Below are positions 34,886 through 37,842 of a stretch of DNA of 38,989 nt, one piece after another. Both the position numbers and the translations under genes were made by a program. How positions within the stretch are numbered: position 1 is the stretch's first letter; every line of letters begins with the position of its first letter. The notes under the pieces were generated by a model. That model did no database searches, was not told where the DNA came from, and saw only the letters and a program-made list of their open reading frames with translations. This stretch comes from an uncultured Desulfobulbaceae bacterium (lineage in GTDB: Bacteria > Desulfobacterota > Desulfobulbia > Desulfobulbales > CALZHT01): NCBI GenBank assembly GCA_945787445.1, contig CALZHT010000017.1:1-38989 (forward strand), given 5' to 3'.

Positions 34886-34962
<77 letters not shown>

Positions 34963-35041: not shown

Positions 35042-35060
35042 AATCCTGCCGGGCGCGCCA
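35042..35060 (+). repeat. duplicated tRNA-Arg 3' end, putative attachment-site remnant
   Basis: AATCCTGCCGGGCGCGCCA is identical to tRNA positions 34944-34962. The 79 bp between the copies encode nothing recognisable. The tRNA terminator now lies after the second copy, as expected if a segment was inserted by recombination at the tRNA 3' end and later mostly lost. Confidence 0.85.
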
Positions 35061-35068
35061 GAGATATC

Positions 35069-35104
35069 AAGCCTTTAACTCAAATCGAGTTAGGGGCTTT
35101 TTAT
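35069..35104 (+). terminator. Rho-independent terminator of the tRNA transcript
   Basis: A 13-bp stem AAGCCTTTAACTC with GAGTTAGGGGCTT (two G-U pairs) and an AAATC loop, followed by a T-rich tract. It lies 9 bp after the duplicated tRNA end. Confidence 0.85.
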
Positions 35105-35269: not shown

Positions 35270-35338
35270 AGGTAGCGGCTCGGCTCAGGGGCTGACAATG
35301 CGTAAGTGCTGGCAGCCACTTGTGGCCGCTTGTTAACC
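35270..35338 (-). repeat. attC-like site 4, terminal and degenerate
   Basis: Minus strand: GGTTAAC (35338-35332) with an AACAAGCGGC arm facing GAGCCGCTACC, and an inner CCACAAGTGGC hairpin. The right-hand core is not recognisable (GCAACTT follows), as expected for the last cassette of an array. The TAA stop of the DUF2007-like ORF overlaps the left core. Confidence 0.6.
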
Positions 35339-35710
35339 ATTATTTTTTGCTATTAATTCATATAGTTTGTAGAGCAACACAAATCCAGTGATTAATAAGA
35401 TGAAAATTGAATAAGTTCTCCATACTTTTTTCTGTTTAGGCTTTGCTCCAAAATGCCATATATCCGGATTAGTCGTAAAATCTGTTGGTAGCTCAGATAG
35501 TATTTTTTCAGCACGTGCTTTTTCTGAAACAGGTACAAGAAGATTCCAAAATGAACCTGGCCCCATAGCAGGAGTATACATGGCAGTTCTTAATCCAGCA
35601 GAACTTTCTTCTTGTCTGTGATGGGGGATACCAGATTCTTTCAATGCATTACATGCCAATTCAAATTCGTGTAAACGGCCTGTTTTTAGTATTACGACAT
35701 GATTTGGCAT
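35333..35710 (-). CDS. cassette ORF: DUF2007-like protein with C-terminal TM anchor
   Basis: 125 residues. Residues 1-75 resemble the DUF2007 'putative signal transducing' fold: HVVILKTGRLHEFELACNAL, GIPHHRQEES, LLVPVSEKARAEKILSEL. A TM helix (YSIFILLITGFVLLYKLYEL) closes the protein, so the domain faces the cytoplasm from a tail anchor. Function unknown. It overlaps the upstream ORF by 19 bases, and its stop codon is part of the attC-like core, placing both ORFs in one cassette. Confidence 0.75.
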   Translation of the reverse strand: MPNHVVILKTGRLHEFELACNALKESGIPHHRQEESSAGLRTAMYTPAMGPGSFWNLLVPVSEKARAEKILSELPTDFTTNPDIWHFGAKPKQKKVWRTYSIFILLITGFVLLYKLYELIAKNNG

Positions 35711-36201
35711 AAGGGAATCAGCTGCTTGGTATTATTATTTTTGGTAATTCCTAACGAATCTGGACTAAAAGTGGTTGAATTTTTAAGAGATGGATCAAAA
35801 CCGGTACCTTGCCAGAACTCCTGAGGCATTTGCAAATCCTTTGGTTTTCCAATCCATCCTCTTTCAACTTCAATGTAATATGACTTTAGGTCATTTCTTG
35901 GTAAATAATAAACACTGTGAGTGTGAATCTTGTCCCATAGACCTAAGAATTTAATATCAGACATTGTTTCTGGATATTTGCCATACCGTGTTTTATGCAA
36001 CTCAATTAGTGCAACTGAAGTTTTAAGATGCTGGTCGCCAAACATATGGTCAGGACCTTTTGTGATACCAGAATCAATGATAGCTTTTATGGAAAAATAC
36101 AATCCACCACATACAAGGGATAAAACAACTACTCCTATAATTATCCTCTTAGCCCATTTGTTTTTTTCTGGTTCAATTTCTAGTTCAGGTATTGATGTCA
36201 T
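35692..36201 (-). CDS. cassette ORF: membrane-anchored protein, pseudopilin-like C-terminal region
   Basis: 169 residues from ATG 36201, 10 bases after the cassette junction; longer TTG-started versions would run into the attC site. One TM segment (IIIGVVVLSLVCGGLYFSI, about 19-37), then an extracytoplasmic domain with LKTSVALIELHKTRYGKYPE and YYIEVERGW, which recalls the helix-strand start of GspG-type pseudopilins but lacks a prepilin leader. No function is assigned. It overlaps the next ORF. Confidence 0.7.
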   Translation of the reverse strand: MTSIPELEIEPEKNKWAKRIIIGVVVLSLVCGGLYFSIKAIIDSGITKGPDHMFGDQHLKTSVALIELHKTRYGKYPETMSDIKFLGLWDKIHTHSVYYLPRNDLKSYYIEVERGWIGKPKDLQMPQEFWQGTGFDPSLKNSTTFSPDSLGITKNNNTKQLIPLCQIMS

Positions 36202-36210
36202 TCTTAATAT

Positions 36211-36300
36211 CCCTAACGATTGAAACAACCTCCTGGCCCCAGACTTGTTCCCGTCAAGGCCGCAGCGCCTTATGGCGTCGGCTTGAATACATGGTTATGT
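36211..36300 (-). repeat. attC-like site 3
   Basis: Minus strand: ACATAAC at 36300-36294 and GTTAGGG at 36217-36211, 90 bp apart outer to outer. Between them an imperfect palindrome carries TTCAAGCCGACGCC on one side, facing GGAGGTTGTTTCAA, with a central GCCATAAGGC hairpin. The upstream ORF stop lies in the ACATAAC core. Confidence 0.75.
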
Positions 36301-36515
36301 TAAAAAAATTTATTTGATCGGTCTGAGTACCACTCATAGTTACATTTAGTGCAACGGAAGTGTTGATCCCTACCACTAGTATTTAATGCACTAGCTCGTC
36401 CCCAAGAAAGCCCTCCGCATTTAGGACATTTCCTTGCAACAAAATACCAAATATAAAAAGCGATAATTGGAGCAAAAACTACAAGTGTTATAAAAAAAGC
36501 TTGAATCTTACCCAT
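36300..36515 (-). CDS. cassette ORF: small TM protein with zinc ribbon
   Basis: 71 residues from ATG 36515; a TTG at 36530 is in frame. TM helix at about 4-28 (FFITLVVFAPIIAFYIWYFV), then a four-Cys ribbon: CPKC and CTKC separated by about 20 residues, with RCTKCNYEWYSDRS at the end. It resembles rubredoxin-knuckle zinc ribbons at the membrane surface. The function is unknown. Confidence 0.7.
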   Translation of the reverse strand: MGKIQAFFITLVVFAPIIAFYIWYFVARKCPKCGGLSWGRASALNTSGRDQHFRCTKCNYEWYSDRSNKFF

Positions 36516-36570
36516 TTGCTTGGATTTCAATTATTATTGTTTTTCTTTTATACGCAATATCATGATTGTA

Positions 36571-36657
36571 ACATAACGCTAAGCTGAGGGACGCACTCAA
36601 AGCCTGCCATTTGAGGCCACCGCAAATCTTCGCGCCTCCTCAACTGACTTGTTAAGC
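36571..36657 (-). repeat. attC-like site 2
   Basis: Minus strand: GCTTAAC at 36657-36651 and GTTATGT at 36577-36571 (87 bp). The arms AACAAGTCAGTTGAGG and CCCTCAGCTTAGCGTT are complementary with bulges, as in folded attC hairpins. This is the clearest of the set. Confidence 0.82.
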
Positions 36658-36670
36658 GCTATTTTCTTTC

Positions 36671-37012
36671 CTAAATGTGGATTACTGTTTCTGAAAAGAA
36701 ACTCTTTATGTTGTTTTCCCTCAAATACCGCAGAGATTTAACCCCAAAATAAGTTCCAATGGGAAAGCTTAAGACCATAATGTAAAGGAAAAATTTGAGT
36801 AGATAGTATCCCCACATTTTTTGCGATAGAATTCCTAAGCCTGTTGAAAGATGCCAGATGAAGATGATTAGAAAAAATATATCAAATGATTTGTCGAAAT
36901 CGGGATCTTTAAAAAAACCGAAGACATGAGCAGCACCGATTACTACCGAAAATAAAATTAAAAATATCCCGGCAGTTTTGACTGGTCTAAATAAGGAGTA
37001 ATCGTGAATCAT
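36671..37012 (-). CDS. cassette ORF: small integral membrane protein
   Basis: 113 residues with three TM segments: GIFLILFSVVIGAAHVFGFF (about 15-34), FDIFFLIIFIWHLSTGLGIL (about 43-62) and YYLLKFFLYIMVLSFPIGTY (about 69-88). A short charged tail follows. Unknown function; size and topology are typical of integron cassette products. The ATG is 9 bases after the GTTGATT core. Confidence 0.7.
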   Translation of the reverse strand: MIHDYSLFRPVKTAGIFLILFSVVIGAAHVFGFFKDPDFDKSFDIFFLIIFIWHLSTGLGILSQKMWGYYLLKFFLYIMVLSFPIGTYFGVKSLRYLRENNIKSFFSETVIHI

Positions 37013-37020
37013 TTTTTGTT

Positions 37021-37113
37021 AATCAACGCTCCGAATAAGCCACGCTACCAATGACCTTGCAGCATAAATGCCGCCAAACTTCCCAGCGTCGGTCTTAACG
37101 CGGTTGGTTATGC
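37021..37113 (-). repeat. attC-like site 1
   Basis: Minus strand: GCATAAC at 37113-37107 and GTTGATT at 37027-37021 (93 bp). The arms AACCAACCGCGTTAAGACC and GGCTTATTCGGAGCGTTGAT are partly complementary. The last codons of the YcxB-like ORF fall inside the left core. Confidence 0.78.
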
Positions 37114-37611
37114 AAGCTCCATCTTAATATTTGTATCTTCGAAGTAATGTTTGAAGGACTCAACGCTTTCAGGCTTCCCGAAGCTTCGCTTTGGGATTAT
37201 GTATGCAGCATATTTGTCCACCATAACGAAAAAGTGATTCTTAGTTTCTACGAGAGAAATGATGCTGTCTAATAAAAGCTCGTTTCGGTAGTTCTCTCCC
37301 TCTTCGATGAACTTGCCATCTGAGAGAATGTACCTTTTTCTGCCTAACGTGATTCCGTTGTTGGAGGGTAAATATTTCTTTCTCGCCATGGAGACATAAA
37401 ATAATAGAATCGCAATGAACACCACACCTGCGCCGATAAAGCTTGGAAGGTGAAAGGGTATGTTCTTAGCACGAATCAAAATTATAGCAGCAAACCCGAT
37501 TATCATTCCGACCAGCATGTTCATAAGAAACGACTTCTTTCTGCCGCGGCTGTAAATATATGAACGAAATGCCTTAAAATCGTTTATGTCTATTTCAGCG
37601 TGTAGGTTCAT
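37108..37611 (-). CDS. cassette ORF: YcxB-like membrane protein
   Basis: 167 residues from ATG 37611, preceded by ACGGAGAAACCG that includes a ribosome site. Two TM segments at about 28-46 and 53-73, then a soluble C-terminal region. DGKFIEEGENYRNELLLDSI, VETKNHFFVMVDKYAAYIIP and KRSF match the YcxB-like (PF14317) C-terminal pattern. The biochemical role of this family is unknown. First cassette of the array, 12 bases after the TTATGC junction. Confidence 0.75.
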   Translation of the reverse strand: MNLHAEIDINDFKAFRSYIYSRGRKKSFLMNMLVGMIIGFAAIILIRAKNIPFHLPSFIGAGVVFIAILLFYVSMARKKYLPSNNGITLGRKRYILSDGKFIEEGENYRNELLLDSIISLVETKNHFFVMVDKYAAYIIPKRSFGKPESVESFKHYFEDTNIKMELA

Positions 37612-37623
37612 CGGTTTCTCCGT

Positions 37624-37770
37624 GCATAACAGGTTATTATAAGGCTTCTGGATAATTCCTTTTCTGGCAAAAATTATTGACAATCAGTTGTATTATTTTG
37701 AACAGAATCCTAACCGGATTACATTACAAATTTCATCTTATCAAGAAAACCGGATAACTTCATTATAAGG
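37624..37770 (-). other. cassette-array boundary with direct repeats (candidate attI-like site)
   Basis: The first cassette begins at GTTATGC (minus strand, 37630-37624), but no attC-type palindrome stands before it. Instead ATAAC-N5-ATTATAAGG (37626-37644, plus) is matched by ATAAC-N3-ATTATAAGG at 37754-37770, about 128 bp away, in direct orientation. attI sites carry direct rather than inverted repeats. No intI is adjacent. Confidence 0.4.
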
Positions 37771-37842
37771 TTCCAACTGATGCCAACTCTGCGTAATAAA
37801 GCCTATCCGATATTTTTATGCAACTTTCTAATGGAAATGAAA

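Follow-up and report, generated by a model that had tools for sequence, protein, structure and literature searches.

Cassette arrays that stand apart from an integron integrase gene (intI) are called CALINs. Such arrays are common, and their origin has mostly been argued in general terms. Off-target insertion of cassettes, loss of intI and rearrangement have all been proposed as routes to them (PMC8618304), and truncation or loss of intI with retention of the cassettes has been documented in Xanthomonas (PMC12444791).

The window analyzed here is an entire contig (C17) of 38,989 bases from a 4.46-Mb draft genome that comprises 227 contigs and is 95.6% complete. Read on the minus strand from 37,795 to 35,270, it holds a short motif, then an attI-type region, then four cassettes that together contain five ORFs, with attC-like spacers between them. 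Because a covariance model identified at least two attC sites and no intI neighbors them, the array is a CALIN by definition. The kind of locus is already known. We consider a small integron that lost its integrase gene to be the best explanation of this array, and a likely one. All features of the array lie on one strand and are as follows.

37769-37786, minus strand: 18-base motif GTTGGCATCAGTTGGAAC, close to the expected intI start; recurs at or near other intI-less arrays
37603-37760, minus strand: attI-type platform ahead of cassette 1; 77% identity over 159 bases (E 7e-26) to contig C139 of genome G001
37624-37643, minus strand: putative attI recombination core, CTTATAATAACCTG followed by TTATGC, within the platform; assigned by sequence homology
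37108-37611, minus strand: cassette 1 ORF (ORF1), 167 aa, two membrane segments predicted from hydropathy; YcxB-like domain (PF14317, Pfam E 3.5e-12)
37021-37113, minus strand: attC site 1; model R1, 42.7 bits, E 1.8e-9 in 39 kb
36671-37012, minus strand: cassette 2 ORF (ORF2), 113 aa, at least three membrane segments predicted from hydropathy; no Pfam or NCBIfam match
36571-36657, minus strand: attC site 2; R1, 20.4 bits, E 0.003 in 39 kb
36300-36515, minus strand: cassette 3 ORF (ORF3), 71 aa, one predicted membrane segment, CxxC...CxxC zinc-ribbon-like tail
36211-36300, minus strand: attC site 3; R1, 24.0 bits, E 3e-4 in 39 kb
35692-36201, minus strand: first ORF of cassette 4 (ORF4a), 169 aa, one predicted N-terminal membrane segment
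35333-35710, minus strand: second ORF of cassette 4 (ORF4b), 125 aa, predicted C-terminal membrane segment; 19-base overlap with ORF4a
35270-35338, minus strand: terminal attC (site 4), degenerate or truncated; R1, 9.3 bits, E 3.6 in 39 kb and E 0.23 in the 2.5-kb array

Three of the four spacers match an attC covariance model

A home-made palindrome scanner failed to separate attC sites from background and was replaced by a covariance model, R1. To avoid circularity, R1 was trained exclusively on attC sites that adjoin intI in genomes, other than this one, from the same order. Its alignment (A2) contained 15 attC sites with the attC stem assigned by hand, and the covariation score of the stem pairs was 0.355 compared to 0.139 after shuffling, well above both shuffled and slid controls. 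The entire contig was searched on both strands and unfiltered, with E-values that should be taken as rough. Sites 1 to 3 were the top three matches in the contig, all of them located between ORFs, and the next match had an E-value of 2.2. No match at E<1 was obtained in 380 kb taken from 20 further contigs of this genome, and as a positive control R1 recovered intI-adjacent sites in other genomes, some of which had been in the training set. When the window was searched with Rfam, tRNA alone reached the gathering score and the attC family was absent.

We located the core-like ends at 37624-37630 (GTTATGC), 37107-37113 (GCATAAC), 37021-37027 (GTTGATT), 36651-36657 (GCTTAAC), 36571-36577 (GTTATGT), 36294-36300 (ACATAAC), 36211-36217 (GTTAGGG) and 35332-35338 (GGTTAAC). 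Complementary cores at both ends are expected of integron cassettes. The 7-base start and end cores are exactly complementary in cassettes 1 and 3 (GTTATGC/GCATAAC and GTTATGT/ACATAAC, respectively) and agree in GTT/AAC only in cassettes 2 and 4. The terminal spacer has a short stem and, on its left, the core GGTTAAC; a right core of the form GTTRRRY is missing. Stems of attC sites are imperfect by nature. In free folding of the bottom strand as DNA, sites 1 and 2 folded no better than shuffles (z +0.5 and +0.6) and sites 3 and 4 modestly better (z -1.6 and -2.2). For comparison, z-scores ranged from -0.9 to -3.7 in a set of six attC sites that belong to other arrays and include some training sites. 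We read the weak folding of the spacers as partial decay, for which it is weak evidence.

A preliminary description of the locus had claimed four spacer palindromes with core-like ends, which it took to mark a cassette array without an integrase. The four spacers and their cores are indeed present on the minus strand, except that the last lacks its GTTRRRY end, and the term palindrome proved too strong. The reading as a CALIN was borne out by the three significant attC sites and the absence of a nearby intI; the fourth spacer was not significant in the same search.

The cassettes carry five small genes with predicted membrane segments

The single-strand arrangement of the ORFs was confirmed, and the spacing that had been described for them held in part. 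ORF starts had been placed 9 to 15 bases after a core; the measured distances are 12 (ORF1), 8 (ORF2), 55 (ORF3) and 9 (ORF4a) bases, with ORF3 as the exception. The stop codons, which had been placed at or inside the next core, overlap a core in ORF1, ORF3 and ORF4b, whereas ORF2 ends 13 bases before its core. Similarly, the count of five genes stands, but a membrane segment is predicted in all five products rather than in four. One product, that of ORF1, has a named domain (YcxB-like); ORF2, ORF4a and ORF4b have no family match, and the zinc-ribbon matches of ORF3 fall below the curated cut-offs.

Relatives of the cassette proteins were rare. We found none for ORF1 in 395 genomes of the phylum, and a single one for ORF4a in 146 genomes of the order (in genome G144, at 55% identity), on a contig without attC hits. 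Viral contigs, plasmids and a GTDB contig scan limited to close relatives yielded no relatives of the cassette proteins; ORF4b was without a match in that GTDB scan. The cassette genes that were tested are not conserved as a block, so the outcome that would have spoken against cassettes, the same ORFs contiguous and conserved in related genomes without the palindromes, was not seen. All genome comparisons used one genome per species.

The array begins at an attI-type platform without an integrase gene

A complete integron has intI adjacent to attI. As had been noted before, C17 contains no integrase: both TIGR02249 and tblastn with three IntI sequences returned nothing on the contig, which ends 1.2 kb beyond attI, and tblastn found no IntI remnant in the window. 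What the preliminary description had overlooked is the attI-type platform at the start of the array, which we found by its homology to G001:C139, a contig from a genome of the same family. The counterpart there extends from the point where the gene for a 432-aa integron integrase starts to the first bases of the first cassette. This homology points to an attI ahead of the first cassette on C17. The platform segment was matched only in the window and in G001 among 194 genomes of the order. The similarity stops ∼4 bases before the ATG of the G001 intI, and the window sequence beyond that point is unrelated. Within the platform, the two loci have in common a core, TATAATAACYTG followed by TTATGY, and GTTATCCGG-like repeats; a core family, TRTAKAATWACYTG followed by TT, is common to C17, to G001:C139 with its intact intI and to contig C46 of the same genome as C17.

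Other searches around the platform were rejected or negative. The exact attI pattern had three matches in 84,980 genomes, all of them due to chance (in genes or on unrelated contigs), and an apparent synteny of tRNA-Arg with intI on contig C16 of G001 reflected tRNA homology only, as the anticodon and the neighbors differ. A scan for sigma-70 promoters gave fewer matches than shuffles, and we claim no promoter.

The array is flanked on the left by tRNA-Arg (34886-34959) and a ZIP transporter gene and on the right by a 119-aa orphan ORF, without relatives in 194 genomes, and a rhodanese gene. We note that the tRNA-Arg 3′ end, AATCCTGCCGGGCGCGCC (34944-34961), is repeated 98 bases downstream at 35042-35059, ahead of a likely tRNA terminator (35069-35099); this duplication looks like the scar of an element once integrated at the tRNA. 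The rhodanese gene at the contig end (38510-38989) has a copy on C167 (L084 3462-4057) that is 97% identical at the protein level and sits downstream of an IS110-like transposase gene. Contig C78 begins with a 99-base overlap (L085 1-99), and it was probably the repeated rhodanese gene that ended contig C17.

Further attI-like cores without an intact neighboring intI occur in the same genome

A search of the whole genome for intI and further attC sites, which had been suggested as a check, found both. R1 detected 18 attC matches at E≤1 on approximately 15 contigs, and the genome has two intact integron integrase genes, on C198 and C91. The first encodes 347 aa and adjoins a lexA-type gene; its attC sites, at 88-178 and 1582-1671, and its cassettes are separated from the intact intI by an IS91-like transposase together with a split tyrosine recombinase (L015 2622-4388). 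The second encodes 334 aa (L016 10219-11223) and lies beside a peptidyl-tRNA hydrolase-like gene in an In0-like arrangement; R1 found no attC site on C91. The regions upstream of these two genes do not resemble the intI-less attI platforms. An intact long-type intI like that of G001:C139 is absent from the 95.6% complete assembly. C46, however, retains 95 aa from the N terminus of a long-type intI as a stump (L110 2815-3102; 39% identity to the G001 enzyme over residues 1-59), followed by an attI core and then by cassettes from 3338, of which a dioxygenase-like gene is the first.

Three more contigs have attI-like cores (TGTAGAATAACTTG or ATTATAATAACTTG) before cassettes or attC sites, namely C30 (L106 6694), C22 (L109 3746) and C69 (L105 8039), and no intI was found near these leaders within the 2.4 to 5 kb examined. 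Over 108 bases, the leaders on C30 and C22 share 85% identity, and both contain the inverted repeat CTGTATATCA...TGATATACAG. Among the loci of this genome, exact matches to the core pattern occurred only at such leaders, with none in a 456 kb control. The C17 and C69 cores are one base off the pattern, and one-mismatch matches were also found in the control, at chance-like places.

The motif upstream of the C17 platform (TTGGCATCAGTTgaAAC) recurs as well. Copies of GTTGGCATCAGTTGGAAC with at most two mismatches are present on C69 (L105 ∼8054), C30 (L106 ∼6786 and ∼3266) and C22 (L109 2375 and 3652), and another on C31, before a broken tyrosine recombinase gene (L121 4648). In a 446 kb control from the same genome there was one two-mismatch match, in surroundings without resemblance. 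Since the distance from motif to attI core varies, from about 15 to 140 bases, the motif is not a rigid part of attI. On inspection, neither sigma-54 nor sigma-70 spacing fitted the motif TTGGCATCAGTTGAAAC. It may represent an ancient promoter or regulatory element of the integrase genes.

Origin of the array

We propose that a long-type IntI was once encoded at about 37764, on the plus strand and reading away from the array, and that it captured at least four cassettes one by one at the attI core (37624-37643), so that the newest cassette would be the one adjoining attI. Subsequent loss of the integrase gene, beginning immediately ahead of its start codon, would have spared attI and the cassettes, and the last attC would have decayed or been cut. 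Rearrangement of the array in cis would no longer occur. A promoter within the attI region may still drive expression of the cassette genes, and the IntI of C198 or C91 could conceivably act in trans on the better attC sites. Several points count against loss. The platform lies beside mnmG in G001 and beside tRNA-Arg here, and the mnmG locus of the present genome contains no integron. With the contig ending 1.2 kb past attI in the repeated rhodanese gene, there is slight room for a displaced intI further to the right. Independent random deletions of intI do not account for the recurrence of one upstream motif at several intI-less arrays. No related genome was found to have the array with an intact intI at the same chromosomal place, so that the loss is inferred rather than seen.

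It is barely credible that the locus is not an integron at all but a set of ordinary intergenic repeats between unrelated small membrane-protein genes. Although the free folding of the spacers is weak and one spacer fails the attC model, the independent attC matches and the 380-kb control refute this view for three of the four sites, and it is further contradicted by the attI homology, by the complementary cores and by how common integrons are in the order, where 82 of 146 genomes have intI. A different possibility is that an IntI encoded elsewhere added the cassettes serially at a chance secondary site, such that the array never had a platform of its own. This is among the proposed routes to CALINs (PMC8618304), and two IntI genes do exist elsewhere in the genome; however, 159 bases of homology to a real attI beside an intact intI are not what a chance site would show, and we regard the scenario as quite improbable. 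As the array sits on an attI homologous to an intI-attI-cassette junction, it looks like an integron platform minus its integrase instead of an off-target insertion. That several arrays in this genome keep a docking site likewise suggests that the C17 array was built by an integron, not by stray insertion.

Two further readings accept the platform. The array and its attI could have been parted from intI by a chromosomal break or by copying, not by deletion on the spot, as the chromosomal place differs from that in G001 and the neighbors include a rhodanese segment that is repeated in the genome and a tRNA whose 3′ end is duplicated. A parted intI should lie elsewhere, but the assembly has none of the long type, which favors loss over mere separation and makes rearrangement very improbable. 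Alternatively, several intI-less attI-type docking sites might be filled or shuffled by the IntI of C198 or C91, in which case the array would still be in service as an outpost instead of being a relic. A similar attI core heads at least four intI-less arrays (C17, C69, C30 and C22), the upstream motif is common to them and essentially absent from the 446 kb control, and both IntI are intact. On the other hand, attI sites are largely specific for their own integrase, and the integrase of the long type is missing from the assembly. The poor folding of sites 1 and 2, the missing core of site 4 and the non-complementary end cores of two cassettes resemble decay, and the two intact intI have upstream regions unlike these platforms. 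We therefore hold service in trans to be unlikely, and it is slightly less likely still that the genome has an integron system with many scattered attI-type platforms, a common upstream motif, few integrases and cassettes filled in trans. Should attI-type leaders be used by integrases encoded elsewhere, the customary view of a single platform for each integrase would have to be broadened. Loss of the integrase gene from a small integron thus remains our preferred reading.

Comparison with described systems

The C17 array is a useful example of probable intI loss. Its retained attI, which matches that of an intact integron in a relative, speaks for integrase loss in this case, and its sister arrays in the same genome, one of them with an intI stump, form a small series of stages. 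Like other CALINs, it has at least two significant attC sites, cassettes on one strand and no nearby intI. CALINs are defined by attC alone, whereas the C17 array keeps an attI-type platform before cassette 1. With the chromosomal integron of G001:C139 and its long-type IntI, it has in common a homologous attI region and core, and the first cassettes at both loci encode small membrane or zinc-ribbon proteins. The two differ in that intI is intact beside mnmG there, while here it is gone and the site lies beside tRNA-Arg, and in their cassettes. As in the Xanthomonas integrons, intI appears to have been lost or truncated and the cassettes remain; the platform in Xanthomonas is fixed at ilvD (PMC12444791), whereas in the present genome attI-type leaders occur at several scattered places.
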